Assembly (NCBI GenBank): GCA_023078555.1
Contig: CM041202.1
Span: 434,001 to 498,000, forward strand
Length of the DNA stretch: 64,000 nucleotides
Origin: Ulva prolifera
Lineage: Eukaryota; Chlorophyta; Ulvophyceae; Ulvales; Ulvaceae
Direction of reading: 5' to 3'
Numbering within the stretch: the stretch's first letter is position 1; each line of letters begins with the position of its first letter. A program made the translations under genes and the position numbers. The notes below the pieces were generated by a model. The model worked only from the letters and a program-made list of their open reading frames with translations, did no database searches and was not told the DNA's origin. Below, one piece after another: positions 8,949-47,862 of this stretch.

Positions 8949-11900
8949 TTAGTTCTTGCCGCGGCTGGTGGATTTAGCACTGGCCTTGCGACGGAACACG
9001 GTGCGGCCACCCCTGCGGCCAGCCTTCTTCACGCCCTTAGCACCACGTTTGGGGATGCGGCGCTTGGGGGTGTTACGCTTGGCGTTGCGGCGCTTGTTCA
9101 GGTTGCGCTTGGCGTTGTGGCGTTTGGGGGTGTTCTTCTTGGAGGTGGTCTTCTTGGGGTATGCGGGCACCTCCTGGACAGGGTGTGTTGGCTTCGTGTA
9201 GTCGCCATGCACAGTAATCTTGGTGGTGGTGGTGGGGCCGATGTGTACTGAGGGGTCAAGCACGACCTTGCAGACGCCCCAGGCGTGCACAGACGCATCA
9301 GCGATGATCTTGGCAATGGCTGGCGCAGCAGCCTTCACGATGACGGTCTTGGTGTGCTCCTCAAGGAAGAAGTCCTTGCCTGCACGCACAACAGCGATGT
9401 TACACAAATGCCTTGTCACACCACACCTGAGCACTGTGTTGCAATGTGAGAGTACGCAGAATCGCTGACTGACGTGTGTCTTGGTGTGAGTCATTTGGCA
9501 CATGCGATAGTCAGAACAGAGTGCTGCGGAATTGTATGCGGAAAAACATGTAGGATGCACCCTTTCTGATCAAACGAGCACGTCTCTCGTGACAAACAAT
9601 AGGCGGAGGGAGTACTCACTTGTGCACTGCTCGAAGTAGATTTTGGAGTAAGCTGTGGCGAGGACGTCCTCGATGGCGGTGGTCATGGCAGAGTACTTGA
9701 CATCGCACTGGCCAAAGCACTGGGACGAAGCCTGAGCATAGCCAGCGGACCAAGCAGTGGCCACAGCCTGCACAGAGCAGCAGATGTTAAATGTATGTGG
9801 TACACATGTGACATTCACCTGCAGTGTCATCATATACATGTCATATTAGATGTTCAAGGAGCTGCAAGAGCAGGACACCGCACAACTGCACTGTTGAGAC
9901 CTGGTTGTGAAAAGTGCATTCAAACATAATTGCATAGCATGCATGCTGGCCTGCAATGCAACGGGAATGCTTATGTGCTCCGTGCGGGGCTCCAATCCTT
10001 GGCTGGAATGCGATGGTGCGCGCTCGTGCGCGGCCTAGTGCCATAACTGCGTGAGTGGATTGGCGTGTGCGTTCATATGTAGCAACGGCTCGATGCCCGG
10101 CCTCTGTCCTTTGTAACGACATACAATGTAGAACGACATGCAATGTAGATCAGAGACAGGCGTCTACCCGTGAATGATTGTGTGGGAGGTATGAGGCAGG
10201 GAGCACACACCTTGGCGGTCTTGGTGATGTCAGCCTTGCCCATGGCGCAGCCGTAGGCTCCCTCGCCAACAATGAAGCAGGACGAGGACACCTCAGTCAC
10301 AGCGATAGCCATAGCCTCAGCGACAGCCTGCACGTTGAAACACCTAAGACGCCGATGTGTATCCAGACACTCATGATGTCACTTCCCAGTGCACTCGATG
10401 ATGCACCGGTACCAAGAACAGGTGACAATTTCAGCTCCGGCATGATATGCACTGACCGTGATTCCATAACCTCACAACGAATGACAACTTGCGCAAAGGA
10501 TTTGATAGATTATACGCGCGCACCTTTGCCTCGACGTCGTAGTACTCGGTCGCGACGTTGCCCAGGCAGGCGCTGGCACCAGCCGTTACATAGGCCGCAG
10601 CGAGCGCATCAACGACGTACTCGTCAGTGGACGCCTCAAGGTCGATTCTGCAGCCAGCAAGGTTGAGATCGCCTTTCTCGCCAGCACCCACGAGCGCAAA
10701 GGCAGAGCCGGAGCACTTCTCATCCTCCGCACGCGCCTCGATGATCGCCAGCGCGAAGGCCTCAACAGTAGCCTCCTCGTACGCCCGGGTGTACACGTCG
10801 TAATCATCTTTGACCACAGAATTCTCCTCAGTAGCCTTGCCATAGAAGTATGGCTCGAGCTGGGCGGTAGCCTTCAGATAGATCTGCTCGAAGCTCTTCA
10901 CAATGGCCTTGCCAGCAGCTGAGCACTTGCCGCAGGTCTTCGCCTTAGCCTGGGCCAGAGCGAAAGCGGAGGCGATGCCGGTAGCCTGAGCATATGCGAA
11001 AGACTTGCCATTGACCTTGTACTCAGCGTTGCCCGCTGCATGCCAGGCTGTGGGTCAAAGCTTTGTCACAAATCACATCCTTGTACACAAACCAAATCGG
11101 CCAAATGGAGTGCACGTGCGATTCCTGTCATGCAAGAAAATCCGGCATTACGGCTGTGTAGGAGCGATTGCCCCTTGAATGCTGAGCCACCTTCTCAAAG
11201 CAGATGTTGCTGCTTCAATTGTCTTCAGACTTCAGACCTCGTGTACAAGTCTATAGGATCACTTACAACACTCAGCAGATGGGCAGCAAAAGGGCAGGAG
11301 TACGCACTTGCGATGCAGTTGACGCTCACGTCCACCATCGCTTCTGCAAACACCTTAGCGGTGGCGTGGGCGGCGCCAACAGCGTGGTCGTATGGATCTG
11401 AACCATCATAGCACAGAGCAGCATTGACCTTCTTGACTGCACATACATGAAGGGTGTTACTGGTACAGTGCATGTCAAGCTCCACCGAGCCCAACCTTCA
11501 GGAGTTTCGTGGTTGAGAACGACACCAAGTGCCGTCATGCATATGGTGTCACGGCAACCCTGCCCTCGTTCCTGTACAGGAACATGCGTGCACCCACGAC
11601 CCAGAATCGTGCTTCAACACGGGGCAACAATAATATGGTAGAACCAAACAATTGTGCAATTGACCATAAGCGCAGCATGCTGCAACACATATACGATGTG
11701 ATTGCGTGGCCGCTGTCCGGACTGGGCAGCACGAGAGGCGAGCGCACCGGCGACAGCAGCCACGTGCTCGGAGTGGGACGATGCGCTCGAGATGGAGCTG
11801 ATCTTGCAGCTGGCCTTGCTCTCTGCATGACAAGCAGGAGCGTGTCAGCCCGACGTACGGTTGTTTATGAACCAGTGCATGGCTAGCAGTGAGAGGCAAC

Positions 11901-12055
11901 AGGTGGCCAGTCCACAGCACTTGCTCACAGCAACATCGATGCATCACACAGGCATATGTTGTGGCTGGCAGGGCAGTACCGTAGGTCTTGGCTGCGAAGC
12001 CTTCGCCGGTGACAGCCAGCAAGGCTGTGCCTGCAACCAGAGTCTTGAGGCCCAT
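8949..12055 (-). CDS. Gene A: secreted Ala/Cys-rich protein with Lys-rich tail
   Basis: Seven exons on the minus strand: 12055-11980, 11822-11748, 11436-11308, 11035-10524, 10327-10211, 9767-9620 and 9379-8949, giving 495 residues. The start is fixed by a signal peptide beginning MGLKTLVAGTALL, cut near residue 21. Residues 26-400 form a module rich in alternating Ala and hydrophobic residues, with 14 cysteines including KTCGKC and QCFGQC. The last exon carries a Thr/Pro linker (TTTTKITVHGDYTKPTHP) and then about 80 residues dominated by Lys and Arg (KRHNAKRNLNKRR). An even cysteine number plus a signal peptide suggests an oxidised extracellular protein. I do not recognise the family. Intron 2 interrupts the segment between the first two module cysteines and is absent in C, D and E; conversely exon 4 is one 512-base block where those genes have an intron. 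Role inferred only: a structural or matrix protein binding polyanions. Confidence 0.85.
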
Positions 12056-12099
12056 CGTTGGTTTCCTGCAGCAATTAAATTGCAATAGATTGCCATGGA

Positions 12100-12880
12100 T
12101 CACTTACATTTAGGATCACGAATCAGACAGGTGCAGCAGGTGTTTTACATGACGTATGCAGTGTGCACAAACTCACAAAGCAATTGCACCGTGCACCAGC
12201 CGTGGTGTGGGGAAAAACAAGCATGCTTTCTCCCAGATCTCCCAGATCTCCCAGAGAAGCAGATCAAGCAGATGCCGTGTAGCGGCCGCGCGTGCACGCC
12301 TTGATCTGGTGATCATGATGAGTCGCGACATGAGACGTACGTACGCCACCTAGATGTGCATGCAGAATCATCACAGCGCTATGACGTACTACATGCATGT
12401 ATCATGGCATCGTACAGAGCTAGATGCAAACTTATCAGGCACAGCGTTCGATCGATCGCGCAATACTGACACAGCCGCAGGTTGCGGCTGTGCACGAACA
12501 GGCGCCGGCTGAGCTCAGCTGAGCCAAACACCTCAAAATCAAAGAAGTACGACGCGTTAATAGTGAGGGACTATAGTCGCTTGCTCGTAGATCTAAGTGG
12601 CCGATATCGCCGCACATTGCGTAGTATATATTCCTGCAGGAATATGCTTGCGGCCGGGATTTGCGTGTACGCAGCAAGCGCCAAAATGTGGTTCAGTGGA
12701 ATCATGCGCATGCTGCCGTTTAAGGTCTATGTTCATGCCCAGAATTGACCAGGGGAGTGTGCAGCCATACCTGATTGGAATTGAACCCTTGCTGCTATTG
12801 GCCGCCACGAATGAATTGCTTAATGAAATAGACAGCTATTCAAGCAACAAGGACTGTAAGTATCGACCAGGACAACATGC
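12100..12880. other. Probable 5' leader or leader intron of gene A; nothing else seen
   Basis: About 780 bases separate the gene A start codon from its putative TATA box. No coding frame with splice support is visible. It holds a threefold repeat of the 9-mer CCAGATCTC near 12232-12257 and an 18-bp palindrome ATATTCCTGCAGGAATAT near 12630-12647. The distance suggests a 5' UTR intron, as does the similar 685-base gap upstream of gene B. Confidence 0.35.
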
Positions 12881-12881
12881 C

Positions 12882-12889
12882 TATTTATA
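12882..12889 (-). promoter_or_regulatory. TATA box of gene A
   Basis: The minus strand reads TATAAATA here, 827 bases before the ATG. The same octamer precedes gene B at a similar distance, which makes a chance match less likely. Confidence 0.5.
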
Positions 12890-13003
12890 GATCTGGCAGA
12901 GCACGGCGACACAGCCTCTATGTTTTCAAGATGCCTATCGTTAGACGGCTCGATCGACGGCGCGATCTGCACATGTGCATGCCGTGGCAGCTGCTCCTGC
13001 CTC

Positions 13004-13053
13004 TGACGTAATCGGGGCGTTGCTACGCGTATGAAGATGCATGATTACGTCAT
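13004..13053. promoter_or_regulatory. Inverted pair of bZIP-type TGACGTAATC sites upstream of gene A
   Basis: TGACGTAATC at 13004-13013 and its exact reverse complement GATTACGTCA at 13044-13053 face each other across 30 bases, about 115-165 bases upstream of the TATA box. TGACGTAA is a classic CRE/bZIP core. A GCAGCTGC box lies 10-20 bases to the left. Gene B has TGACGTAATC, a TGACGTA core and GCAGCTGC in the corresponding place, so this looks like a shared promoter module. Confidence 0.45.
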
Positions 13054-14457
13054 ACTGATGGGCCACATCTCGAGCATCATGAATCATGATGCATCATCCC
13101 AGCTGGGCCCATCATCACCCAGGCTGCAGCCGGCTGGGACTCATCGAGGCCGATAGCAGCACGGTGCACCATGCACATGGGCGTGCAATTTTGGCAACCA
13201 CATCAGTCGAAGCGCCTCGACGGTGCTGGGGCAGCATCTCGCCCTTCACATCGCTGAGCTTTGAGTGAAACGTTTTGAGAAGCGCATGCGTCACTGGGAG
13301 CGCTATTCGTCGAGGAGCTTTCGTTCTCCTGTGGTTCGAGACGGTGAATCCGCGTGAACATTCGCCAGTGACACAAATTGGATGGATTGTATATCACATG
13401 TTGTTTCTCACGGATTCAGCCTCCCGCTATAAGTTGCCAGGTCCAAGTTGCCAGGTCCATGAGCGTGAATGCCGCGAAGCTTGATGAGCTGGCATCAAAA
13501 CATCACATGTACAGCGTTGTGATAGGAATCCTGGCCATGCAGAACACATAAATACATAATTGGATGGGATCAATGGCGCTGTCCTGGCATTGGGCATATC
13601 CCGTTTAAGCGCTAGTCCGAGTTTTGCGAGGCGCAGTCTCTCACAATACACCCATGCTGAATGCTACGCCTACACAGAAGCATAAGTGTAGATCCAATCT
13701 AGATTCACGGATTTCGTGCTTCCTCTGTGCAGCCTACGTATTGTCATGACTCCCACCTTGTCTCAGGCAGCAATTGGCAATGCCACGAGTGTCATGTATG
13801 TGAGTTGACCCTTGGCGATACCGCTTGCATTAAACATAAGCAATTTGCGATAAATACTCGGTAAGAGGTAGACAAGCTGCCTTGCAGTTTGAGTAGGCTA
13901 TCTCCGCACAGCCACACAGTTTTTTGTCAAAGGTGTTTGGTTTACAAATGGGCTAGAATGAATTCTCTCTTCACTCGCCTATGCTACCACGTACATACAT
14001 ATATGCTGCCTGCTTGGCCTTAGTACCCCACACCATGGTGTTGTTCTCCACCTGCATGCCACACAGGCTGGCCCACACTAAAACCTCCCTGCAACTGTGT
14101 GTCGTGGTCCATAACGGTATCAATCAATGTGTCCGTTCCTTCCGCAATCATCTCGCTGCGGAATCCTAGCGCATGCTGGGCAGGAGGGCGACCATCACCA
14201 GGATCTCCGGTGGGATCGTTCATCCATCGTACTCCATTGCTCCTCGTGGCAGCGCCCACAAGGATACCGCCATGCTCAGCAGGTGACACTTCGTGTTCAA
14301 CTTCCTCATATGGACTAGCAGAACGCATGTGCCCTGCAGCTGCACGCTGAAGGCGACCACCATCGCGTTTCCATGCGCCCGCACGACTTGACACTCTGCA
14401 TACTGATGCACAGTGTCTTCCACCAATCTCCAAAGACGCCTCAGTGACGATGATGGC

Positions 14458-14768
14458 TCACTGCGCTGCCAGGTCGAGCTGCTTGGGTTGTATGTCAGAG
14501 GCATACCGCTCAACGACGCCTTGAACCACATCACATGCAGCTTTCACAGCATAGGCAGCTACTTGTGGGGCAGACATTCTGGTAGCAGCAAAGGCGGCAG
14601 ATCCATCAACTGCGCCATGACCGACTTGGCATGCATAGTCGACTTTCTTCAATTTGCCATTGCCAATGTCCAGTGACCTGCGAGATCTTGCCACAGACCA
14701 TGCAACCGCCGCACAAATCGCCAGTGCTACCAACGGAAGCATCGTTCCCAAACTCTGAACACCATACA
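14458..14768 (-). CDS. Possible decayed or partial sixth family member
   Basis: An ATG at 14768 opens MYGVQSLGTMLPLVALAI followed by more hydrophobic residues, a convincing signal peptide or anchor. It continues with a lysine pair, a cysteine (DYACQVG) and an Ala-rich segment AAYAVKAACDVVQGVVERYA that resembles exon 2 of genes C, D and E in spacing and composition. The frame stops at 14458, but a donor (CA|GTGAGC) at the same place could splice onward to an exon near 14350. Later family exons were not found. It may be a truncated relative, a separate small secreted protein, or chance. Residue identity to the family is low, so this rests mainly on layout and composition. Confidence 0.28.
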
Positions 14769-14810
14769 TTCTGTGACATACCGTAGGAATCTGTGCCTCC
14801 AGCACCAGCT

Positions 14811-16295: not shown

Positions 16296-16306
16296 TATCT
16301 GGGATC

Positions 16307-18501
16307 ATGCAGTTTGCAAGAACTCTAAGCATTCTGGCGTTGGCACTCGCGCTTCAGCAGGTGCGAAGTGCTGCAAGTCGTTGCCTGCCAGGTCTGGCCG
16401 TTCGGAATGCAAAGAATCACATTAGCAGCAAATACTCGCGAGTTCATTCAATTGTATTCTGATGTTCACGACGTCATTCGCCTGGTACTGGGAGGTAGTG
16501 CCTATGCCATACTGCGGAACACCGCATTTGGGTATGGTCTTTGACAACAATATTCGCATGAGTCTCTTCGTTCTATGCTGTTCAAGTGCTGCAGGTGCTG
16601 CCTGTTGCGCTGTCTCAGCTTGTGGAGCCATCACGTCCAGGTCTAGCCTGTCCACAAGGAGCATGCAGGGACTCTGTCCAGACACTCCTTACCAACACGT
16701 CGGACTCAATACTATTCGATCCCGCCATCTTGTCGTCATGTAGCAGCCCAATGAAGATGCACAGCATCCTTGTACGGAACTGCGCGGCTGACCTCTTGAA
16801 CGATGTCTTCTCTCAGGAATGCACATGTTCACAGAAGTGTGTGGAGTCCATCACAGGGGTGCGATGCCTGCGTGCTCTGCTGTGAATTCTCCATGCACTT
16901 GTCACTAAAGATCTCCAACTTTGCCCCTGTTCGATGTTGCACCAAATCTGTGGGCAGAAGTCCAAGTAGATACAGTGCATCGCACCGAATCCTGCTGTGA
17001 TGTCTGCTGCATGTGTCCCTCACCGGCTGTATCACTACTGGTCTACTTCGTCGAATCCATGCCTTTTGATGTCTCAACAGATCAGCACTGGAGGTGTGCA
17101 GGTACCAAAGGCATGTATGTCTGCGTTTGTGAGATATCTCTGTAGTATGGTGCCGGATGCCTATCAGAAGGGTGTAGATCTATTTGGGTCCCTGTGCGCT
17201 CTAATCCTCTGTGATAAGGCCACACATCTGCCCACTGACACATTCTCTGCTCATTCAACAACTGCATCTTGGCATGCCAGCCGGCACAGTGCTGATTCCA
17301 AGATGGTGACACCTGTGGCATACGAATGTCTCCGTCCGCAGGCATGCTGCATGTCTAGCATGAAACAAACGCCCACGCAATCTGACGCCGACCTTCTGCA
17401 GAGAATTTCTTATACACTCGTGTTATCATCGCCCTGGAAATCAACGCCCACCAAGTCCTTTGTGTCAAATGGTGCGCAACCACAGGTACCTGCCTCGCTG
17501 TGCACGGCCAATGACCCATCAGCAGAAGGCTATCGTATGATGCACCGTACCCCAAAGCAGTGCATAGCCTGAGTATCTCTTCCGCGCTTGCCGCGCCCTG
17601 TGCCCTTGCTCACAACTGGTCCAGGCGCGAGCTGGCACAGCCAAGAACATGGCGATGTGCTCAGCAGCTCTCCTGATCCTCTCTGCCTGCAGGTGACACC
17701 AAGGGAAGTGCACAACGTCACTGACTGTTCCACCCTGGCGTCTGCACCTGTGCGTGAGTCCAGAGGGAACAGTGCTGGGGAGACGGACTTGGCGAACGCC
17801 TTTGATCCTCCTCCTTCACCACCCAGAGAAGAGGCGACTGTCACAGACCAGTCAGTTGATGTAGCCGGGCCGAATCAAGGTCCAGGATGGGGTGCAAGTG
17901 GGGGGCCACCAAACTGTGGCAATGGCGCCTGTCGGGCTGGGCTGCCAATGTGGCTGCAGACGAATCTCGATGTGCGACATCTTCACGCTCACGTCGGCCT
18001 GTGCACCGATGCACTCTCAGATCCATGCTATCCAGCCTAGCTCCATGCAGCATGGACATGTTTGCCTGCATGCATGTGATCGCTTGATGATTCCACCGGC
18101 ATTGCCTGCTCAGCACGTTCAGTGCCTGCGTTGCCAATCCCTGTCCCACAGCAGGGTGTCTGTCGGGTGAATGCAACCATTTCCTGCTGTAGAGGTTCTT
18201 TGTGGTCACCGAGTGCGGTGACTTGGCAGTTCTCTTCCAGCTGTTGACCGAGGACTGCGTCGAGGACCTCGCCATGTCAGGACTAGACTGCCAGTGCAGC
18301 CAGCGGTGCAGGCGGGCCATGCAGGCTCTGCCAATGGCGTGCATGGCACAGGTGCGGCAGGTGATGTGCATGAGTGCAGCGGACGCACGGGCGGAGCAGG
18401 TGGAGCTGGCGGAAGCCACGTGCGTACCCGCCTCCTGGTTTTGGGGTGCGCCATGCTTTTCGTCGGGTGTTGGTCAATATGACACCGACAATTTCAGATA
18501 G
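16307..18501 (+). CDS. Secreted protein with duplicated CxC cysteine domain
   Basis: Proposed exons 16307-16360, 16595-16858, 17102-17485, 17693-17749 and 18241-18501, all phase 0, give 339 residues. The first exon is a signal peptide (MQFARTLSILALALALQQ). Two copies of one cysteine pattern occur. Copy 1 spans exons 2-3: CTCSQKCVESITG, then after the intron VPKACMSAFVRYLC. Copy 2 lies in exon 5: CQCSQRCRRAMQALPMAC and then MAQVRQVMC. Both fit C-x(10-12)-C-x-C-x3-C-x10-C-x8-C, and the exact x10 spacing across the exon 2-3 junction supports that intron. I do not recognise the domain. The right end of exon 3 (17165-17485) and the choice of exon 2 acceptor (16595 or 16619) are uncertain. Function unknown; extracellular by signal peptide. 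Confidence 0.5.
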
Positions 18502-20462: not shown

Positions 20463-23435
20463 TCAGTTCTTGCGGGCGATGCGCTTGGAGACAGTCTTGC
20501 TGCGGAAGAAGGTGCGGCCTCCCAGAGAGCGCTTGTGGGCAGAGAACTTCTTGACGGTCTTGCCCACCATGCGGCCTCCCCTGTGGCCGGCCTTCTTGGA
20601 GCTCTTGCGGCCAACCTTCCTTGAACCCTTGCCACCGCGCTTGGCGCTGCGGCGCTTGTTCAGGTTGCGCTTGGCGTTGTGGCGCTTGGGGGTGTACTTC
20701 TTGGAGGTGGTCTTCTTGGGGTGTGTGGGCACCTCCTTGACAGGGTGTGTTGGCTTCGTGTAGTCGCCATGCACAGTAATCTTGGTGGTGGTGGTTGGGC
20801 CGACATATGCTGAGGGGTCAAGCACGACTTTGCAGATGCCCCAGGCGTTTGCGGAAGCCTCAGCGATGATCTTGGCGATGGCTGGCGCAGCAGCCTTCAC
20901 GATGACGGTCTTGGTGTGCTCCTCAAGGAAGAAGTCCTTGCCTGCACGCTCAAACGAGGTTACACAAAGGTCTTGTCGCACCACACCTGAGCACTATGGT
21001 GCTATGTGAATGCACGCAGAGAACAGAGAGCTGTGGGACTGGAAGCAGACAGTCGTGCAGCATTGACCCGTCGGGTGTATACACTCGTGACAGGCAACAG
21101 GATAAGGGTAAACTCACTTGTGCACTGTTTGAAGTAGATCTTGGAGTAAGCCGTGGCGAGGACGTCCTCGATGGCGGTGGTCATAGCAGAGTACTTGACA
21201 TCGCACTTGCCAAAGCACTTGGAGGAGGCCTGAGCATAGCCAGCGGACCAAGCGGTGGCCACCGCCTGCACAGAGCAGCAGATGACAACGATCTTTGTAC
21301 ACGTGTGACATGCACCTGCTGTGTCATCATACAAATGTCACATTGGATGTAAGAGGAACTGAAAGAGCAGGCCATCGCATTGCTGCAATGAGACATGGTA
21401 CAGAAGCCTTGGGGTGTGTGAATGCCGACTTGTGAAGCAGGGAAGACACAGGCATTTGCCTGTGTAGCAAACTTTCTGAGAAAGAGCAGACGCGATGCAC
21501 ACCTTGGCGGTCTTGGTGATGTCAGCCTTGCCCATGGCGCAGCCGTAGGCTCCCTCGCCAACAATGAAGCAGGACGAGGACACCTCGGTCACAGCAATAG
21601 CCATAGCTTCAGCGACAGCCTGCACGATGAAGAGCGTGTCAGGCATCTATGTGACCCTTAGCATACACCAAATGTCATTTGTGCCAACAGATACTGCAGC
21701 AGGTGATGCATGAAGAAAATGTGCGACAAGAACAAGATGCACGAAGAACAACGATAGCTCCGGTAAAGCATGGATTGGACGGTACTCCAGAACCTCACAA
21801 TGAACAGTAACTCCAACACTGATCTCTTGACAAGGCATTTCTGAGCGAGCATAGCCGCGCACCTTTGCCTCGACGTCGTAGTACTCGGTCGCGACGTTGC
21901 CCAGGCAGGCGCTGGCACCAGCCGTCGCGTACGCCGCAGCGAGCGAATCAATGACGTACTCGTCAGTGGACGCCTCCAGGTCAATTTTGCAGCCAGCAAG
22001 GTTGAGATCGCCTTTCTCGCCAGCGCCCACGAGCGCAAAGGCAGAGCCAGAGCACTTCTCGTCCTCCGCACGCGCTTTGATGATCGCCAGAGCGAAGGCC
22101 TCAACAGTAGCCTCCTCGTACGCCCGGGTGTACAAGTCGTAATCATCTTTCACCACAGAATTCTCCTCAGTAGCCTTGCCATAGAAGTATGGCTCGAGCT
22201 TGGCGGTAGCCTTCAGGTAGATCTGCTCGAAGCTCTTCACAATGGCCTTGCCAGCAGCTGAGCACTTGCCGCAGGTCTTCGCCTTAGCCTGGGCCAGAGC
22301 GAAAGCGGAGGCGATGCCGGTAGCCTGAGCATATGCAAAAGACTTGCCGTTGACCTTGTACTCAGCGTTGCCCGCTGCATGCCAGGCTGTGGGTCAAAGC
22401 CTTGTCACAAATCACATCCGTGTACACAAACCACACCGGCCAAATGGAGTGCACGTGCGATGACTGTCATGCAAGAAAATCCGGCATTACGGCTGTGTAG
22501 AAGAGATTGCCCCTTGAATGCTGAGCCACCTACTCAAAGCAGATGTCGCTGCTTCAATCGTCTTCAGACTTCAGACCTCGTGTACAAGTCTATAGGATCA
22601 CTTACAACACTCAGCAGATGGGCAGCAAAAGGGCAGGAATACGCACTTGCGGCGCAGTTGACGCTCACGTCCACCATCGCTTCTGCAAACACCTTAGCGG
22701 TGGCGTGGGCGGCGCCAACAGCGTGGTCGTATGGGTCTGAACCATCATAGCACAGAGCAGCATTAACCTTCTTGACTGCACATACATGTATAATGTTAGA
22801 TGCCCAGGGTGTTACTGGTACAGTGCATGTCAAGCTCCACCGAGCCCAACCTTCAGCTGTTTCGTGGTTGAGAAGGACACCATGTGCCGTCATGGTGTCA
22901 CGGCAACACTACCATCATTCATGTACAGGGACATGTGTGCACCCAGACCCGGAATCGTACTGCCCCGTGTTGAGGCACGTGCCTCAACACGGGGCAAAAA
23001 TATCATGGCAGAACCAAACAACTGTGCAATTGACCATAAGCGCAGCATGCTGCAGCACATATGTGATGTGATTGCGTGGCCGCTGTCCGGACTGGGCAGC
23101 ACGAGAGGCGAGCGCACCGGCGACAGCAGCCACGTGCTCGGAGTGGGATGAAGCGCTCGAGATGGAGCTGATCTTGCAGCTGGCCTTGCTCTCTGCATGC
23201 TAGGCAAGAGCGTGACAGCCTGACTCACCGTTATTCCACAATAAGTGTCTGGCTAGCATCAAGAGACAGCAGCTGCAGCCCATGATCACTCCACGTGGAC
23301 AAGCCAGGCTACTCACAGAAATGTGAAACATGCTCATCTTGCAGCTGGCGGGACCGCACCGTAGGTCTTCGCTGCGAAGCCTTCGCCGGTGACAGCCAGC
23401 AAGGCTGTGCCCGCAACCAGAGTCTTGAGGCCCAT
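20463..23435 (-). CDS. Gene B: recent duplicate of gene A
   Basis: Exons 23435-23360, 23192-23118, 22775-22647, 22374-21863, 21619-21503, 21265-21118 and 20941-20463 give 511 residues. Exon lengths 1-6 are identical to gene A (76, 75, 129, 512, 117, 148). The signal peptide starts MGLKTLVAGTALL as in A. Exon 4 differs from A by about seven residues, and introns 2 and 3 are still easily aligned to those of A, so the duplication is recent or conversion is active. Differences concentrate in the last exon, whose basic tail is longer and contains RKVGRKSSKKAGHRGG and ends in RIARKN. All 14 module cysteines are kept. Intron 2 carries a perfect 36-bp palindrome missing from A. Function unknown; a secreted polycationic structural protein is the inference. 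Confidence 0.85.
22961..22996. repeat. 36-bp perfect palindrome in intron 2 of gene B
   Basis: The left half is TGCCCCGTGTTGAGGCAC, followed immediately by its exact reverse complement. The aligned position in intron 2 of gene A (near 11600-11630) has only the right-hand CTTCAACACGGGGCA, so the left arm arose by local inverted duplication or was lost in A. Confidence 0.9.
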
Positions 23436-30093: not shown

Positions 30094-33000
30094 CTACGCA
30101 ACACGATCTTTTCGCTCCCTGCGTCCGCGACTGGACCGTCTTGCACGGCTGTCTCTCCTGGCGAGCATGTCATGCCTGCGCCGCTCACGTGCAGCAGCAA
30201 GTGCCATCATAGCTTTGCGAGAACGCTCAGCCTGCACAGCCACCTGTTTATTGCGGCCGGCGGGACCTTTCTTTGGGATGCGGTTTCCAGGTCCGCCAGT
30301 TTTTGGTCGCTGAGTTTTGGGTCCACCAGAGGCCGGGCGACGGCGGGTCGAAGCTTGCTTAGCTTCCTTCCCGACATGCTTTGAAGGCGTGGGGTGGGAG
30401 CTTCGTGCAGGACGAATGGACCGAGGGCGGCGGGAGTCGCGTGCAGAGCGGCGACGGCGGACAGACCGGGGTCGACGTGGTGCACGCATGGAAGGGCGGC
30501 GTCTGGAGGAATGGCGGCGGGGACGAAGGACGGTTTTCTTGCGGGGCATCTTTTGACCCCGGCTTTTCGGATTGGATCGCATCTGCTTCACCGGGCGCCT
30601 CGTTGGCATTCGCTTTGGTGCAGGCTTACGTGCAGGAGGGGATGGCCTTTGCTTCTGCTTGGGGTGCAGTTGCTTGGTTGGGTGGTCAGACTTGTAGTGA
30701 GGTTTCGATGCAGGGCGTGTGGGACGGTCGTGGGTGTCGGGTTTGGGATGCGGCTTTGAAACAGGTGCTGCAGGGTAAGGGTGGGCAGGCTCATGGTGGG
30801 GCTTGTCCGTGTTGTCTGAGTGGGTAGGTTCCACATGATGCTTCTCCATGTTGTCTGAGTGGCCAGGGTCCACGTGATGCTTCTCCACATACACAGGGTG
30901 GTCAGGCTTCTCATGGGGCTTCTCCGTGTTGTCTGAGTGGCCAGGGTCCACGTGAGGCTTTTCCACATAGGTTGCGAGGTCAGGCTCATCGTGAAGCTTC
31001 TCTTTGTGGTCAGGATCAACGTGTGGCTCCACATATGGTTCGGAAGCTGGGTTGGGGTCAGATGTATGAGTAGCAGTGTCAGAGGTGGATGCAGTGACAG
31101 TAACTTGAGCTGGAGCAACAGCCTGGGCCTGGCGTTGTTCCAGAGCTGGTCCAGACACCAAGTATTCTTCTCCAGGCGATACCGCGGCCTCAATTTCCAA
31201 CTCGATTACACAGTCACCTTCAGATGTCGCAGTTGATGCTGTCAGGATCTTTGCCAGGGCAGTGATGGACGCATCAACAATTTGTGTTTCAGTGTATTCA
31301 ATGTCAAAAAACGAATTTGGACCTGCAACACAAATCAAAGGTGCACATCAGGGATGCATTCGCTGTCAACCACTTTCTGTTTCACACGTTATATAATAAG
31401 GCCTCATGGTGCAAAGGCAACAAGCAGAATGGAAACACACCAGTGCATTGCGATTCGAGACTGTGGGAGGTGGCCGTTGCGAGCACTGAGCCGAGCGCCT
31501 CGGTCAACACACTGACATCTGTGTGACACACCTCATTGCAGCTGCTTGTAGCACTGACATATCCGAATGCAAATGCATAAGCAACAGCCTGCATACATCC
31601 TCCATTAGTTGAACAGCAGAGAGAAGTACATATACTACATCATATTGAAGCACAGTAATTTGCACATGACCCAAATTAAATGATTCATATTGCGCAGTGC
31701 TGTAGGGCGCACCTCAGCTGTTTTGGTAATATCAGCCTCGGCCATTGCACAGACATGACCCTTACCTTCGACTTGGCAATCAAGGGTGACTTGAGTAATT
31801 GCAATTGCCATTGCATTGCCAATCGCCTGCACGAATACATTCATGTACAGTGGCTGGGATCATGCATATGCCTGAGCACACTTTCAACACAACACCAGAG
31901 CTATAAGCTGCCAATGTCCTGCAACACTAAACAGTCCAAAAAACCCTGAATCCCAAACATCGATCGAAGAATATATGCTATTATTCAGGCTCGAGCCATC
32001 ATCGCGGGCATGGACTCCAGCACACCTGGGAACATGCCCGGAAAGACGGATACATCACACATATTTGCAAATGACTTGCTGCTTGAGGGACACAACCAGG
32101 CTAGACAGTACTGCTACATCCTTGCATGCACGATCATTCACTCACAGTGTACACAAAAGAGTCAAGAGTCAAATTTACTCACCTCAGCTTCAACCTCAAA
32201 TGATGAGTTTGCGATGCCAACGCCGCACACATGTGCTGCGACACTTGTTGAGATAGCAACACATGCGTTCCTCACAACTTCATCATCAGTCGCTGTGCTG
32301 TTCAACTTGCAAGTGACTGAGTTTGCATCGGTTTTGTCACCTGTCTTCACAGTGGCTTGTAATGTGCTGGCGCATTTGTCTACTTCAGCATGAGCCGTGA
32401 CGAGTACCTGCAAGCATACAGCACAGAGTGATACAAAATCATGACGACTGTACTTCTCAGACACTTCAATGCCCACCATTATCACTCTTGCTTTGCACTT
32501 TATGCTAGTACGATTATGCGGATTGTGACAGTCACCGAGATAGGAGGCTTCAGCGCACCTCCGCAAATGCAACGACGGTGATTTCAATGAAGGATGTGGC
32601 AGATGTGCTGATTGATTCAGCAACGGAGCCACCATTGGCAACGCCCAGAAGTGTAACATCAATCTGAGATGTTGCGTTGAGGAAAATCTCTTCATAGCTG
32701 TGAGCAATGAGGCTGGTTGCCGCGAGACACTTGTGGCAGGTCTCCGCAGAAGACGCAGCTTCGGCATAGGCTTTAGCAATGGCTGTGGCTTGAGCATAGG
32801 CTAGAGACCCGCCATTGATCTTGTATGAAGCGTAGCCTTCTGCACTACCAAAATATACATGTATTCTTAGTTTGCTCGAAAGCTGAAATCGCATTGTGCA
32901 TGGCGACAGATACAAGAGACAAGTGCAAGACAAGGCTGGCAGATGACAACATCTATATACTTGGCTACATACACACTCAGTGACTTATGCTTTCCTGCTT

Positions 33001-33543
33001 ACTGGCAGACTGCAGACAGACTGTCTAGACACCAATGATTTCTGGTTGTTGGTGTCCAGACATGGCACAGACAATGCTCCATAGACTCAACGACACCAAA
33101 GCACAGCTCTGGGCACGAGCCAGCCAGTAATGTGTCCAGGCATGTCATGCAGCATGCCGTCGAGTTCAGCTAATCGCGCACCTGCGTAGCAACTGGCCGT
33201 GGTGTTCACCACCGCGTTGACAAACGACTCTGCCAAAGCGAGAGCATAAGCGGGAGCTTCCTCTGGGGCACTCTCACTATCACCACAAAGATACTCATTG
33301 ACAGATTGGACGGCCTCTGCTGCCACACTGACAGAGAGCGAGGACGAGTGCGTGACAGCGGTAAGGTCACATGCTGCGATATTGCCTGCAATGGCATTAA
33401 GACTACTTGTTGACAAACTCATATTCACACAGTATCTTGCTGCAGACTGGAAGAAGCATACTGGCGCCGTGGTCGGCTGTTGCTAAGACTCTCTCGGCAA
33501 TCGAAATCAGCGCAAAGCCCGCTAACAATCGCTTAACGGCCAT
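30094..33543 (-). CDS. Gene C: family member with His/Asp repeats and Arg-rich tail
   Basis: Exons 33543-33462, 33385-33182, 32839-32559, 32407-32183, 31826-31713, 31588-31441 and 31322-30094 give 760 residues. The signal peptide begins MAVKRLLAGFALISIAERV. The module has the family landmarks: CDLTAVTHSSSLSVSV, TCHKC, the CxGKGxxCAMAEADITKTAE-type segment and SCNEVC. It has one cysteine more than A (HVCGVG), shared with E. From about residue 352 the last exon encodes a conserved helix, then tandem His/Asp/Glu/Pro units such as KPHVDPGHSDNTEKPHEKPD (candidate metal-binding), then about 200 residues of Arg/Lys/Ser/Pro sequence (RRPRSVRRRRSARDSRRPRS). Introns 2 and 3 follow the C/D/E pattern, not the A/B pattern. 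Divergent from D. Secreted polycation of unknown role. Confidence 0.82.
30815..31020 (-). repeat. Coding tandem repeat in gene C linker
   Basis: Units of about 39 and 78 bases built around TGTTGTCTGAGTGGCCAGGG and CCACGTGATGCTTCTCCA repeat several times on the plus strand. In the coding sense they give the EKHHVDPGHSDN-like units. Repeat number probably varies between strains. Confidence 0.75.
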
Positions 33544-33861: not shown

Positions 33862-33899
33862 GGCTTGCGAAACCGCCACGACCGTGCGCGCCACCAGGA

Positions 33900-35160: not shown

Positions 35161-35163
35161 GGG

Positions 35164-36474: not shown

Positions 36475-36479
36475 AACAC

Positions 36480-38409: not shown

Positions 38410-41400
38410 ATGTCTCGGCTCAGCTTGGTGACCGGCGTTGCCCTTGCCTTGTGCGGTGAGGCTGCTGGTACCTTCACACGCACGTTTAATCCAGGTACGC
38501 TTCTTGGCATGCTGACAGCTGTAATGTATTGGCTGCTGTGCATTCGGACGCTTTCACTCACACTTGTTTCAGAGAATCTATGTGGACGGTCGGATCATTG
38601 CTTTCGATTGCAAAGGCTGGTGCCATGATCTGGGGCTCTGCCATGCAATGGCCCAAGCTTCTGAGCTTCCACTCTCTACATTGCTTCCAAGAAGGGCATG
38701 GCCGGCTTGACACAAGCATACGAAGTGCACCTCTGTCTTGCTTGTACGTTGTCCTGACCATGTTGACATGCTGTGAACATGCAGGAAGTATTGCGAAGTG
38801 CGACGTCCATACTGTGAGCAAATCATCCTCGTTGTCTGTCAGTGTCGCAGAGAGCGCCGTGACGAGGATAGATGCTGTGCTGTGCGGTCCGGAGGAAGCC
38901 GTGCATGACCATGCCACATCGTCCGCACATTCCATCGCGACTGCCTTTGCTGAGGCAATCACCGGGGTTGCGGCTGAGTGCTATGCAAGTGCGTAACATC
39001 TACTCAATGTTGCATGCTGCAAGATGGCATAAGTCTACATGTTGTCCCCTGTGACATGAGACGTTATTGGGCGTCGTTGATACAACTCTTTCAGATTGTC
39101 AATGCATTCTCAGAACCCAAATCCCAGCTGTTGTTGATTCTCCAGGCCACAACCTGATGTCTGCAGAGGGCACTGCATCTTTCAAGGTCAAGGGCAAGTC
39201 AGTAGCATCTGCACAGGCTCATGCTATTGCCCAAGCATACGCAGCTGCTTATGCCACTGCCCACACCTGTCACAAGTGCGCAGCAGTAAGTGAGCTTGTT
39301 ATCAAGAGTTACGAAGACATATTCCTCAAAGCCACCTCCGAATCAACTGTTGAGTTTGAGGCCATCACACATGGAGAAGAGGTCTCTATAGCTTCTGATG
39401 CCTTCACACGGTCGTTCATCGAGAAGACTGTTGTTGCCTTCGCTGAGGTACAGACCTACTGCTGTGCTTGATGGATGCAGTCAACATGTTGTGTAGCCTT
39501 TGGTGCTTCTGCACAGCTTCTGTTGTGCATGCCATCATGTGCCATGATGTTTTGATTGTCCTGGAGTGTATGTCATCTCTTTCAGTTCACATTTGAATAA
39601 CATCACGTGTTTGGAATTTTACTCTAACATGCAAATCTAGATTCAGGACCTGTCCTATTTTTAAAAGGGGGGTGTCCTGTCTGTCTGTCACGCTGCCCTA
39701 TGTGCAGGCAATCGTGGATGCCCGAGCTGCTGCTGACTCCTGTGAAGTTTTGACCATCGCGAAAACAGAGACAGGAGATGTTGATGATAGCAATGCTGCC
39801 GTGTGCAAGATTGGTGTGATTTCATCAGATGATGAGAAAATCACAAATGGAGCCGTTGCGATAGCCACCAGTGTTTCTGCTCGGGCATGTGGTAAGGGAT
39901 TCACTACAACATCTTTCGAAGTGGAAGCCGAGGTGAGATACCACTGTATGCTGACGAAAAGCCCTGTTGCAGTAATTCATGTTCGGACAGTAGTCGCGGC
40001 GGTGCAACAAGCACAAGTTTTACACAAGTTGGCACACCAAGGCCATTGTCATGTTTTGCTGCACCACATCCTGACTCGGTTCTCGAATGCCCATTGATCG
40101 TACTGTTCCCGCTTTGCCTGGATGTACCAGTTTTTCAGCAATTGTATGTGATTGTCTATTATGTATTGTGAACCCGTTTCAGCTTTTGAAAACAGTATTT
40201 CGAGTTGGGTGGACTCACACACCAAATTCGTTTTGCAGGCCCTAGGAAGGGTGATGGCTATTGCTGTGTCTGAGATTTCTGGTCATTGTCACGTCAAAGG
40301 CAAAGGAACTGCCTGTGTCCTTGCTGAAGCACACATGGAAAAAACCGCAGAGGTGTGCAAACATCTCACATGCATTTGCTGGCGAAGTCCAGCACGTGTC
40401 AATCAACATGGCAAATATCATGTCAATATTCTTATTTCTTGTTTTTATTAATTTGTGAACAGCAGCACAAAGAATTTCTGTTGAAACCAGCTCAGGTACT
40501 GTGATATTCAGTGACGGCTTCTGCATTGCAGGCTGTTGCCACAGCTTTCGCCTCAGCTTTTTCCATTGCCACCAACGAATGTGGCGATTTGTGTGATGCA
40601 GACACAATTGTTGTGTCTGATGCCATAGGCAAAGTACTTGCAAAAGCCACATCAAAGGTCTACAAGGAGCAGTGTGATGGTACGATTTCATCCTTCTGGC
40701 TGACTGTGCTTTAAGCTGGCCGGATCTCCTTCCTGCCCAAATCTAGTCACGCAAAGGTTTTGCTCGACACATTCCAGCTCCGCGCCGTGCCCCTTTCGTG
40801 GGAATGCTTGAAGTCTTAGCGACCGAGTGGAGGTAGCCAGAGTTGAGGCCTGCGTTCAGGTCCAGACTCATACTTTGACATCAAAGTCATTGACAAGGAG
40901 ATTGTGGAGGCCACAACAACAGCTCTGGCATCAATACTCACAAGCGTATCTGTCTCATCTGAAGCAGTGTGTGATATTCACGTCGAAGTTGAAACCTCTG
41001 TCAGCCCAGGTGATCAACAGGAAATCACAGATCATGACGCTCATTACCCGCATGATGAGTCCCCGCATCATGAGCACCCAGAGCCTGCACATCGCCCTGA
41101 CACGAAACACTCACCCAAATCTCCACACGGACGCAAGCGACCAGCCCGCAATTCCGATTTCAAGCGTAAGCATGGAAAAGTTGTCAACAAACAGTCTGCA
41201 AAGCACCATGTCAAACACAAGCCTCATCAGCGCCGACCCGTTGAAGGTAAGGGCAGGAAGGTTCTGCCAAGAAAGCAGGAACGCCGTGCTGCACGGCTTG
41301 CTGCAGCCAAGAAGCATGCAATGGCCATGAGGAATGAGGAGCGCCGTGCTGCACGGCTCGCTGCAGCCAAGAAGCGTGCAATGGCCATGAAACAATTAAG

Positions 41401-41578
41401 CCGGGAAGAAAAGCTGCGTGCTATGCGGCTAGCTGCAGCTAGGAAGCGTGCATTGGCCATGAAGCGCCAAAGCGATCGTGACCAATCCTCTCGCACACGA
41501 TCACCCAGGCGGTCCCGTCGCAGCCGTGGGCCCCGACGCTCCCGGTCTAGGGGTAGCCGCACGCCTCGCAGGGGCTGA
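38410..41578 (+). CDS. Gene D: family member with amphipathic basic repeats
   Basis: Exons 38410-38494, 38785-38988, 39167-39447, 39708-39932, 40239-40352, 40532-40679 and 40860-41578 give 591 residues. The start MSRLSLVTGVALALCGEA is a signal peptide and aligns with the starts of the paralogues; an upstream in-frame start exists but is not supported. The module holds CDVHTVSKSSSLSVSV, TCHKCAA, CHVKGKGTACVLAEA and NECGDLC, 14 cysteines outside the signal. The last exon has a His/Asp/Glu/Pro-rich linker (DHDAHYPHDESPHHEHPE), three repeats of an Ala/Arg/Lys helix (ERRAARLAAAKK-AMAMK), then an SR/protamine-like end (RSPRRSRRSRGPRRSRSRG). Exon lengths 2-6 equal those of gene C (204, 281, 225, 114, 148). 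Secreted, unknown function. Confidence 0.83.
41276..41466 (+). repeat. Coding tandem repeat in gene D tail
   Basis: Three units of about 60-66 bases begin GAACGCCGTGCTGCACGGCT or a close variant. Each encodes a positively charged, alanine-rich amphipathic helix. A related single unit (SRKAMMALAAARERRR) occurs near the end of gene C. Confidence 0.8.
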
Positions 41579-41806
41579 TCTGGCCTGTCCGAATCAAAAC
41601 AGGTGTTTTATGTTCGTTTTCACTGAAAATTGTGATCCGCTAAAAACATGGAAGCTTTGGAGGACCACAAAAGTGCGTTGGGACTAGCTATCAAGCTGTG
41701 GCAGTTTGGACATAAGTAAATGCAATCGTGGATTACATTGCCTGGATTAATTCTGAACAGTATGGACCACACCCTGGCGCATTCTGGCTTGGTAGACTGG
41801 CATGGT

Positions 41807-41811
41807 TGTAA
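41807..41811 (+). terminator. Putative TGTAA poly(A) signal of gene D
   Basis: TGTAA, 229 bases after the gene D stop. Confidence 0.3.
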
Positions 41812-43131: not shown

Positions 43132-46100
43132 ATGACTGCGCTTATGGACATGTTTCGGCTGATCTGGGTCGCTTCGCTTTTTGGCGTCGTTTCGTCGTAC
43201 AGCACGCCGGCCAAAGGTGTGATCCAGCGCAGTGCCCATCGTCCGCTGGATCTCGGCCTGGATCTCACCCTGCGATATTGATGTCACGGCCGTCAGGTTA
43301 CAGAGAAATCTTGAGCATATCGTCCCTGGTATGTCGGGAGTGTATGTCGTGATTGAGCTCCTTGCTTGCCAGATGCTACCGGTGGTTTGAAGTTCAAACT
43401 TTGAACAATGGGCTGGTGTTCCTGCACATGACAGGCATGACGATTATGCAGACAGCGTGGCGAAATGTAGTCTCGATGCCCTTTCCAAGTCTTCCTACGA
43501 GTCTCATCAATTGGCTGCTCACGCTGCGTCAAAAGCTGACGCTGCGTTGTGTAATGACACGAACGCCGTTTCTGTAGCCAAATCATCGGCTCTTTCTATA
43601 TCCAACACGTTCGCAGATGCTTTTTTGGGAAGCATCGTTGATTGCTATGCTGGTGCGACCCTCGCACCACGTAGCTGACTTATCACTGGCCAAGACAAGC
43701 TGAAACATCCCCAATCCGCATAAAGGTTTCAGTGTCTTGCTAAGCCATAACCCCTTACGAAATCTGCTTGGGTACACGCACATGTGAGTAGCTTTGTGAC
43801 CTGTTGGCTCCAGAAGTGGTGGACCTGCCATTGCTGGATCTGAAGCAAGTGTACCTGCTGTCACTTGCCACTTGCTGTAGTCACACGTGGTGCCCATGGA
43901 CTCGGAACAGTGCAAATGTATCATCATCTTTCATCGACGTCCATCTTGCTGTTTGGGCACGAGTCCACAGATGTGTTGCATGTGCAGAGGGCTATGCATA
44001 CTACAAAATCAATGGAAAATCCCTGGCAACAGCTCAGGCCTATGCTTTTGCGGAAGCATTTGCCGAGGCGTCTGTGGTCTCGAAAACCTGCCATAAGTGC
44101 CTAGCTGCAAGTGAGCTCCTGGCTCATAGTTACGCCGAAATATACATATCTGCCGCGAAAGAAGCAGAGGTCTCGATCGAGGGACTGGCATCAGGTGGCC
44201 GAGATGAGGACGACTACACCATCATACATCAGCACCTTGTTGAGAAGACAATGGTGGCTTTTGCCCAGGTATGGTGGCTTTTGCCCTGGTCAAATATGCA
44301 GACAGCCATGTGGCGGTCAGTGTAGTCCTGCCTTTAAACTTCTCCAGCCCATCGTCGGCCACTGCAACACCAGTGCCACGTGGTTTGTATGACATTTGTT
44401 GGCACATTGTGCCCACATGCCATTCGCAGCGTTACACAAGGTTTGTGGGCACTGTGGAGGACATACTGTTCACGCAACAGAATGCTGTTCATGTGCTGTA
44501 TTCTGGTCTATGATCACAATCAACCGAGTCGATGGAAGCGCCCCCGCAGGCTGTAACTCGAAGGCGGCGTGCATAGCATGGGCAGCTTGCTTTGTGCCAT
44601 CAGATATGAAGCAAATACGTTTGATACGAGGGGTGCCGCTGTTCCAGGCCAACTTAACGTCACCTCAGGCAAGCATACCAGCTGAGACTGCTCAGCGTGT
44701 CGCAGTGTCGGTGCAGGTGATTGTCAAAGCGCAAGCCAAGGTCAACGAGTGCAAGGCATCAGCTGAGGTGAGAGTCGCAACGGGTGTTGAGGGCGATCTC
44801 AACAAGGTCGAGTGTGTGGTCAACAGTGCGGCATCGTCTGACCAAGTGGTGCAAGACGCCTGCAAGCATGCAGCAGAGGACCTGGCACTGTCCGTTTGCG
44901 ACCTGGAGGACCGCACGACCGACGTGCTACATGTCCAGGCAGAGGTGAGAAACGCCTTGCTGGGCCTTTCCCCTGTTTGTTTCCTTGTTGACACGTTCCC
45001 TCGTCGACCCCACTCGTACTGCATTCCATGGCAGGATCCGCCCATACTGCTGGCAGCTTGCACAACACAGATCAGGGCGCTGCACTGCGACTCAACCTAT
45101 GAGACGAGGCCGTGTTCTGGTGCAGCCTGCATCCTGGTGCACTTGGTCCACCGAGCGCATCTTCCACGGATGCCTGTTAGCGTCTGTAAATGGTCCATCT
45201 GCCTGGTTCTTGGCCAACACCCCTCTGCTGAGATTGGTTATGGCACTTCCAGGCTCTGACTTTACCACACCGTGCAGGCAGTTGCCAAGGTCGTTGCAAT
45301 TGCAATCACTGAGGTCTCGGCAGGCTGCACGATTGAGGGCCAGGGCATTGCATGTGCCGTCGGCTTGGCTGAAATATCCCAGACCGCCACGGTATGTTCC
45401 AAGTTCAGACACAGCATGTAGTGGATCCGTGGTGTGACTGCAAATCCAGTGGCCCTGGCACGCATTTTGTGCGAAGTTCGTGGCCACAATGTGCCCCTGC
45501 CAGTGTGGAGCAACTGAAAATGTGTGATGTGCCTGCAACTACATGCCTCTGCCGATACAGGGACTTGAGCTCTGATGCACACTATTCTCTACCCTGCGTG
45601 ATGCTTGCCTGCAAACACTGCCTGCAGCATAGGGGTAGCTGCAAAGAGCACCAAAGCAGTCTTTGCGCCTGAACGTTGGCGTCATCACCTTACTCCAGCC
45701 TGACAGTCAGGATTTTTTTTCCACGGCATTGGTTTCCACACAATCATTGGACCGATTTTACCATCATGATCGCGTCTGTGCAGGCTGTTGCAGAGGCGTA
45801 TGCAGGCGCATTTGTGAGTGCCACGGCGGAGTGTCACGAGCTGTGCCACACTGAGGAAGATGACATGGCCGCTGCCATCGGCTCGGTGCTGGTGCACGCC
45901 ACAGCCAACATCTACAAGTACCATTGCACAGGTTCGGCCGCGCCATTGCGTCATCACTCCGCTCCTACACAACTGCGCAGTTGAAGCGAAGCAGATTCTC
46001 GGTCATGTGCATCTAGCACTCTGTTTGGATGTGACATCTGGCTGGTCCGTGAAAGCTCTATGTTACACATGTTCCACATCTATGTTACACTTGCAGAAGC

Positions 46101-47862
46101 TGTGTAATTTCTTTACAGCTTTGGCATCATCGTCTGCCATTCTGCTCCGCAGGTCGATGTGGCATCCTATGCTCGAGTCTGCATTTGCCTGTCCTGTACA
46201 TCTGCATCTACATCTGCATCTGCATCTGCAGGCCCGGACTCCTATTTCCATATCGAAGACGTCAATTACGAGATCGTGAGGTCCTCGGTGACAGCCATTG
46301 CTCATCTGCTGGCCCAGGCAACAGTAGCAACCAACGATGAGCGCAAGACCGAGTGCATGGTGGACATGCAGCTGGACTCTGCCATCGAGCCTGAGGAGTC
46401 CCCCGACCTGCGACGAGCAGCGGCAGCAGCTGACACAGCAGCAGCAAACGACACAGAAGCGGCAGCAGCTGACACAGCAGCAGCAGCTGCGGCAGCCGCC
46501 GGGCCTGTGCCGGTTTCTAGCGCTCTTGGGCCTGCACCGGATCAGGATTCGGGCATGTCCAGGACGGCTGCGAGCCTCGCCGCTGCGCCCGCAGACTCTC
46601 CTCAGCTCCCGGGTGAGGTCAATGCGTCGCGCACAAGTGAGGCGGATCCATCAGCCAATGCGACATCACTGGCACCGGAGCCTGAGGCGCTCGGGCCTGA
46701 GATAGCCCCTGGACCTGTCCCTGGAAATGACTCACAGACCACGCTATTGGCAGCACCCACTCCCACAGCTCCCGAGCCCGCACCTGGACCTGGAACTGAC
46801 GCGCGCACCACGCAAGCGGCTGCCGCTGCCCCCGCAGCGCCCGAGCCCGTGCCTGGACCTGGAACTGACACATTCACCACGCAAGCCGCTGCCGCTGGAG
46901 CCACAGCGCCCGAGCCGGCGCCTGGACCTGGAACTGACACTCGGTCTGCACAATTGTCAGAAACTCGCGTCGCAGCTCCTGAACCAGCAGACGATCAGAT
47001 CGCTGAGGCAGTTGCCGCCGCCCAGCTGGCTCCAGCGCCCGCTCCAGCTCTGTCAACGAGCAGCGTCACCGCTGATGCAGCACAAGCTGCCAAACCAGAA
47101 CTTGATGATATCGACGAGTCGGATGACGACGCCATTCGCACCTCTCTGCCAAAGGATGCTGTAGACAAGCCACAGCCGGAGCCGAAACCACGTCCAGACT
47201 CCACTCAGGAACCGGTCATCGCGTACGCTGCTGCGTCCCCAGGTGGCAGCTCACACTCCGCAGCAACAGAGAAGCAGTCGCGAGTACATGGCCCGAAAGT
47301 GGAGCAGCATCCCACCAAGCCTGCACGCCGTCCAGCGATGCCAAAGCGGAGGCCGGCGCCCCGCCGCAAACAGCCAGTGGCAACATCACGGCCAGGCCGC
47401 CCGGGTGCACACACGGTCCGCCACAGACCCTCCAAGCGCGCGCCCGTCCGACCCAGACCACCAACACCGCTCCGCCGCCCCAGCCGTACCCCTGTCAAAC
47501 ACCGCAGGACGGCCGATGCCCGCAAGGCACACGTGCGGGCCTCTCAACAGCCGACGCGGCCGGCTCCCCGTGAGTCGAAGGCTGCACCCAAGGCACAGCC
47601 ACGAAAGCCCCGCACGCTCCCCGCACGCGGCCGCGCAGCTCCCGGCAGACCGCGGCGGCCCTCCGCGACAGAGCGGCCGCCGCGCAGGCCGCGGCAGCGT
47701 GTGCAGAACAGCAGCCGCACCCGCCGAGACCGCACGCGCGTGCCGCGCCGCGGCGCCAGCCCTCCCGCAAAGCAGCCACAGAAGAAGCGTGCCGTTGTCA
47801 AGCAGAGTGGTCGGCGGCCCCGGGGCGCCCGCCCCACACGCCCAAAGCGCCATTTGCAGTAG
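43132..47862 (+). CDS. Gene E: largest family member, Pro/Ala/Gly linker and Arg-rich tail
   Basis: Exons 43132-43216, 43452-43652, 43988-44268, 44717-44944, 45278-45391, 45784-45931 and 46232-47862 give 895 residues. The start at 43132 (MTALMDMFRLIWVASLFG) gives a signal peptide of the family length; ATGs at 43144 and 43150 are alternatives. The module keeps CSLDALSKSSYESH, TCHKCLAASELLAHSY, CTIEGQGIACAVG and ECHELC, with 15 cysteines. From residue 353 the last exon has a conserved helix, an Asp/Ala-rich stretch, four PEPAPGPGTD-like units separated by TTQAAAA (similar in feel to hydroxyproline-rich wall proteins), an acidic patch (LDDIDESDDDAIR) and about 220 residues of Arg/Pro/Lys tail. 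Acceptor 6 is formed by a CATCTG microsatellite. Secreted; role unknown. Confidence 0.82.
46198..46231 (+). repeat. CATCTG hexamer repeat forming a splice acceptor
   Basis: Five to six units of CATCTG (one variant CATCTA) end in CTGCAG, directly at the last intron-exon border of gene E. Each unit supplies a potential pyrimidine-AG context. Confidence 0.75.

Follow-up and report, generated by a model that had tools for sequence, protein, structure and literature searches.

A 64,000-nucleotide stretch of the Ulva prolifera genome (the window; C7:434001-498000 of the 88.9 Mb, 44-contig genome that we searched) carries five genes, A to E, whose predicted products combine an N-terminal hydrophobic leader, a Cys-rich head and a basic tail. 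We found that A-E are part of one clade among ~63 head loci, that the head is, by profile comparison, a tandem internal duplication, and that the commonest detected end of the family is a module resembling CBM1, for which the polycation of the A-E branch is a substitute. An earlier note on this DNA had described a five-gene cluster standing alone, a view that does not survive the genome search, and had missed both the duplicated head and the substituted module. On balance, and with a probability that we put only just above even, these features suggest that A-E encode structural proteins secreted to the cell wall or extracellular matrix of Ulva.

The gene models were rebuilt from splice sites and intron phases, and every one of the five has seven exons, in agreement with the coordinates and exon number of the earlier note. 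Gene A spans 8949-12055 on the - strand and encodes 495 amino acids (aa; exons 12055-11980, 11822-11748, 11436-11308, 11035-10524, 10327-10211, 9767-9620 and 9379-8949), and its near-duplicate in the same orientation, gene B, spans 20463-23435 (-, 511 aa; exons 23435-23360, 23192-23118, 22775-22647, 22374-21863, 21619-21503, 21265-21118 and 20941-20463). Gene C occupies 30094-33543 (-, 760 aa; exons 33543-33462, 33385-33182, 32839-32559, 32407-32183, 31826-31713, 31588-31441 and 31322-30094), gene D 38410-41578 (+, 591 aa; exons 38410-38494, 38785-38988, 39167-39447, 39708-39932, 40239-40352, 40532-40679 and 40860-41578) and gene E 43150-47862 (+, 894 aa; exons 43150-43231, 43452-43652, 43988-44268, 44717-44944, 45278-45391, 45784-45931 and 46232-47862). 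All but one of the 30 introns are of the form GT...(G/T)CAG, and the 30th (C intron 2) was re-set to a GCAG acceptor. Intron positions and phases are identical among C, D and E; in A and B, exon 2 is split and exons 3 and 4 are fused.

Independent proteins bear out these models. Residues 26-412 of the database protein P0002 are tiled, with no overlap, by single-exon translations (from A, exons 3-7; from each of C, D and E, exons 2-7), whose Cys fall on P0002 Cys, bar one extra Cys in C and one in E. The source contig of P0002 is 1,829 bp long, too short for the A-E introns, so this protein is probably transcript-derived. When the exon junctions were compared with P0002 (for A and B) and P0001 (for D), five of six were gap-free and the first, leader junction was gapped in each. 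P0001 (jgi/Ulvmu1 UM082_0008.1) is the closest protein to gene D, with 58% identity by BLAST and 64% between the heads by global alignment; we take the prefix jgi/Ulvmu1, carried by all six named protein matches, to denote Ulva mutabilis. Between the heads of A and B, the nonsynonymous rate (dN 0.021) is far under the synonymous rate (dS 0.141), which together with the exon tiling on P0002 argues that the gene models are not due to chance. A profile scan of the window for the head recovered 32 of the 35 A-E exons, missing the leader exons of C, D and E, and found three weak places outside the five genes (5.2-6.5 bits) that we read as noise, hence no sixth head gene in the window. A hydrophobic leader is present in all five products by hydropathy, in keeping with the secreted look noted previously.

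The heads of A-E measure 411-415 aa with the leader (~390 without it), contain 18-21% Ala, have a net charge of -5 to -35 and share exactly 14 invariant Cys columns, including C-x2-C (TCxKC) and C-x3-C; head size and Cys count agree with the earlier note. In an alignment of 33 heads (A-E, 18 further genome loci and 10 database proteins; all 23 genome members were checked by profile), Cys occupies 12 of the 14 columns in every head, column 94 lacks it in two heads, and the Cys of column 251 is shifted by one place in six. The spacing of the Cys hinted at two halves, and the head appears from profile comparison to be a tandem duplication of a unit of ~187-190 residues: each half has six matching Cys, with one additional pair in the second. 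Compared as profiles, the two halves scored 122.8 (180 columns), whereas none of 40 column shuffles exceeded 16.2 and reversal of one half gave 43.1 (113 columns). The nominal E-value of 2.1e-19 owes part of its strength to composition, as the reversed control already reaches E 3.7e-6, and we therefore base the case for duplication on the gap in score and on the matching Cys. Pfam gave no match at cut-off in 17 proteins scanned (four with partial or no head), and the profile check placed the head in no characterised family, as the earlier note had supposed. An AlphaFold model of P0002 (38 rows, including 23 window exons; predicted local distance difference test, pLDDT, 61.9; predicted template modelling score, pTM, only 0.41) has five helices per head half; when head residues 31-400 are taken in blocks of ten, 24 of the 37 blocks have pLDDT >=70. 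The model of P0003, another database relative (14 rows), is poor (pLDDT 49) yet helical too, and, at a pTM of 0.41 for the P0002 model, no solved fold stood out in fold searches. Conserved Ala frequently alternate (of the 60 spacings from one conserved Ala column to the next, 27 equal 2), and a hydropathy-angle analysis favours period 2, which is strand-like and conflicts with the helical model.

To place A-E within a family, we used three queries against the genome: the heads of D and A, and part of P0003. The resulting count of ~63 head loci is approximate: head matches were compiled by hand and joined within 2.6 kb, extra exon matches of listed loci were left out, and weak single-exon matches, such as C6:2001598 and C2:2778093, were kept. 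The count excludes long Ala-rich open-reading-frame matches on C8, C1 repeats near 4-18 kb and 1.2-1.28 Mb, C3 1.35-1.97 Mb, single matches on C2 and C4, and C9:4139936. The end module of a relative, used as a query, matched 74 places; 72 were used in pairing modules with heads, and 29 of these 72 pair with no head. A CBM1-like module lies <=4 kb downstream on the same strand at 43 of the 63 head loci, and the genome search detected none in the window, where the best score was 9.4 bits. Ten database relatives also end in this module or, judged by eye, in a diverged form of it. Polycationic ends were found in A-E, at loci C7 140, 151 and 171 kb and C9 3.197 Mb, and in P0001, P0002 and P0006. 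Pattern matches to A1 numbered 38 in viral contigs and 72 in GTDB species genomes, none of them a relative by tblastn, and a description of the family was not found in the open PMC literature, although prior mention in subscription papers is possible. One relative, P0007 (jgi/Ulvmu1 UM020_0006.1), has the same head followed by an acidic Met/Asp-rich linker and then a CBM1-like end. Separately, C4:3.22-3.40 Mb holds twelve CBM1-like module matches unpaired with a family head, 11 of them on one strand, which might be read as a second use of the module.

The end module comprises 64 residues with eight cysteines and resembles fungal CBM1. A PDB search with the module profile returned just two matches at E<=10 (E 0.041 and 0.19), both to stretches read as CBM1, and three of 12 modules matched Pfam CBM_1 (PF00734) at all, the best at E 0.03. 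Nine module tails were read directly, namely those of eight of the 43 paired loci (L010, L017/L054, L018/L022, L019/L065, L020/L066, L027, L028/L068 and L061) and the degenerate one of L025/L067, which the search had missed.

The distribution of the two kinds of end was examined on an unrooted maximum-likelihood tree of the 33 heads, in which 12 rows are polycationic (A-E, four other loci and three database proteins). The other 21 comprise 15 with a module read, five with a module match only (L023, L031, L059, L081 and L086) and P0008, which stops before the tail; P0009, P0010, P0011, P0014 and P0016 stand outside the tree. A single branch separates all 12 polycationic members from the rest (support 90/91; recovered in 84% of 200 bootstrap trees; FastTree support 0.961), a grouping equalled by none of 500 label shuffles, and a core of ten of them has support 100/99. 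Sister to these ten are L013/L064 and P0006, which have a Pro-rich linker and then a Lys-rich end. This placement fits a single exchange in which a polycation would have replaced the CBM1-like module. As the root was not inferred, we take the direction of the exchange from how widely the CBM1-like form is spread over the rest of the tree. In A-E the end of the head and the tail share one exon, which points to a change inside the last exon and not to exon shuffling at an intron there.

The polycationic tails of A-E vary widely, from 84 to 479 aa, and pass from Lys-rich (A and B) to Arg/Pro/Ser-rich (C, D and E), as described before; all are Cys-free. The tail of A (8949-9203, -, within exon 7) has 84 aa and a net charge of +29, that of B (20463-20765, -) 100 aa and +34, and that of D (41039-41578, +) 179 aa and +45, with a 20-aa repeat. 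In C (30094-31143, -, 349 aa), a His/Asp/Pro mixed-charge linker with 13-aa repeats precedes an Arg/Lys-rich end, and in E (46423-47862, +, 479 aa) a net negative Ala/Pro-rich linker with 23-aa repeats precedes an Arg/Pro-rich end; in both, the half before the basic end is net negative. Over the last 80 residues, the net charge is +20 to +36 in all 12 polycationic proteins versus +3 to +5 in the CBM1-type proteins, of which three were measured. The tails of D and P0001 are 31.5% identical, against 64% for their heads, with K+R at 33% and 30%. Tail charge is thus conserved, and tail sequence and length are not. For the A and B tails, dN is 0.232 and dS 0.374, which compared with the head values indicates a constrained head and a much freer tail. 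Tandem-repeat periods are divisible by three in 11 of 11 rows in tail exons (some rows overlap) versus 3 of 15 elsewhere in the window, so the tails seem to grow by in-frame repeats. Residues 403-526 of P0002, its tail, have pLDDT under 50 and are predicted to be disordered.

We propose that these proteins follow one layout, with a leader and an acidic head of two six-Cys units, followed by low-complexity sequence and ending in a binding block, which is a CBM1-like knot in most relatives with a detected end and a disordered, Cys-free polycation in the A-E branch. They would be secreted and would reside in the wall or matrix. We infer that the head, stabilised by disulfides, would dock or self-assemble, and that the terminal block would fix the protein to a wall polymer. 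CBM1-like forms would hold a neutral, cellulose-like polymer, and polycationic forms would hold sulfated or uronic polyanions such as ulvan and glucuronan through many weak charge contacts, so that a tail swap would change the polymer tied, and perhaps cross-linked, to the same head. Ulva walls contain cellulose, ulvan, xyloglucan and glucuronan (sections of PMC10762512 and PMC8307928), and since their polymers are in part sulfated and uronic (as excerpted from PMC10762512, PMC8307928 and PMC9266709), a polycation would suit such a wall. The glycoproteins of this wall are termed essentially uncharacterized in an excerpt of PMC8307928. Of the roles offered by the earlier note, matrix assembly or binding of acidic polysaccharides is still the best reading, whereas mineral templating was dropped, as nothing bearing on it was found. 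A matrix cross-linker heads our ranking, followed by an adhesive and then by surface defence.

Several observations weigh against a wall or matrix role of this kind. Seawater salt weakens simple charge binding. The leaders were called from hydropathy alone, and A, B and D (three of the five) have no N-glycosylation sequon. Among the 20 head loci with no detected module, a polycationic end is not established for 11; one of these, L067 (C7:2208465), carries a degenerate module, and another, L088 (C9:3.185 Mb), was read only up to a Pro-rich stretch. A Pro-rich linker is not a family constant, as Pro makes up 22-55% of the 60 residues before the module in four of the nine tails read, 13% in one and 0-7% in four. 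CBM1 contacts cellulose through three aromatic residues on one face. At these positions the module consensus, aligned by eye, has N/R, R and F, and most copies have no aromatics at two of the three, although one, L065, has NYNYAQC. Among the module matches listed, the best score is 14.6 bits, and full-length P0003 scores 13.5, versus the Pfam cut-off of 20.6. Given the sub-cut-off score and the incomplete aromatic face, cellulose binding by the CBM1-like module is only a lead.

Other roles for the polycationic members were weighed against the wall or matrix reading. They may instead be adhesives, released from swarmers or rhizoids and set as glue by complexing of acidic polysaccharide and by disulfide exchange, which we regard as possible but rather improbable. 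An acidic head joined to a polycation has the charge layout of a coacervate, and Ulva spores and rhizoids do attach by a glycoprotein adhesive (excerpts of PMC11966768 and PMC4347444), for which no gene is named in the portions of the literature examined. However, none of four gene-id strings appeared in a term search of the main text of a gametogenesis paper (PMC8734247), the size of the family and the prevalence of CBM1-like ends in it suggest a general use in the wall, and three of the five genes encode no sequon for what is called a glycoprotein. A bolder combination of the two ideas, to which we give slightly less credence still, is that a matrix family switched polymer once, from a cellulose-type knot to a salt-tolerant polycation, and that the resulting branch would be the ulvan partner, including the spore and rhizoid adhesive, working as a coacervate glue with a disulfide-linked head.

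Unlikely, in our estimate, is a role in surface defence, in which the tail would act as a cationic antimicrobial against epiphytic bacteria, either free or cleaved off the head. The tails are strongly basic, and the fast change between the A and B tails, together with the tandem copies, fits an arms race or relaxed constraint equally. Against this, tail dN remains under dS, the tails of D and P0001 share composition only and not sequence, and the head is common to CBM1-like relatives, which points to anchoring. Still more doubtful is packaging of nucleic acid or vesicle cargo inside the cell by a histone-H1-like tail that condenses DNA, RNA or cargo: the K/R/P/A-rich tails are like those of linker histones in composition, but all five proteins have a leader and 14 conserved Cys, relatives have Cys-knot ends, and no linker-histone Pfam match at E<=1 was found in the polycationic proteins scanned at full length, namely A, D, P0001, P0002 and P0006. 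It is very improbable that the tail frames arose as artefacts of annotating GC-rich 3' sequence (guanine plus cytosine up to 64% over 46-48 kb, the site of the E tail), as the same kind of tail occurs in the independent proteins P0001, P0002 and P0006, the tail repeats keep periods divisible by three, and the tails are open to the stop in the frame fixed by the conserved head.

If A-E are wall or matrix proteins, the family would offer ~63 candidate wall-protein loci with one conserved head and a testable rule, by which the same head with another terminal block would hold another wall polymer. It would also provide a short list of basic members as candidate ulvan partners or adhesive proteins, with a bearing on biofouling, green tides and the building of a multicellular wall.

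Elsewhere in the window, an open frame that adjoins the cluster (53415-54407, +) matches Galactosyl_T (PF01762, 23.6 bits, cut-off 23), and a 98-bp direct repeat (53429-53606; 1.8 copies, 91%) lies at the start of this galactosyltransferase-like frame, which would place a glycosyltransferase close to candidate matrix genes. Between A and B, Cys-rich open frames at ~16300-18100 (+) with a leader-like start (MQFARTLSILALALALQQVRS...) possibly encode another secreted Cys-rich protein outside the head family. At 63508-64000, perfect (AC)n repeats form a microsatellite that is at least 493 bases long and runs past the window end.

Among known systems, the pherophorins of Volvox and its relatives are matrix proteins in which a Pro-rich spacer joins Cys-rich ends. 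The present family is alike in being large and matrix-type, and in that some CBM1-like members consist of a Cys-rich globule, a Pro-rich linker and a terminal domain. As regards a layout of globule, Pro-rich rod and globule, four of the nine module tails read have >=22% Pro before the module, and A-E have no second globular end. Unlike pherophorins, the family has an Ala-rich head with 14 Cys and a duplicated unit, none of the 17 proteins scanned had a Pfam match to the pherophorin domain at E<=1, and polycationic ends are, to our knowledge, not a pherophorin feature. CBM1 (PF00734) is a fungal cellulose-binding domain found too in oomycete and algal wall proteins. The module keeps its C-G-G...C....C...N..(F/Y)SQC pattern but differs in its extra Cys, sub-threshold Pfam score and weak aromatic face, and was not detected in A-E. 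Silaffins and the byssal and sandcastle-worm cement proteins are polycation-tailed matrix or adhesive proteins. The polycation of A-E is unlike theirs in being fused to a conserved Cys-rich head, and the likeness would lie in the working, that of a disordered basic chain complexing polyanions.

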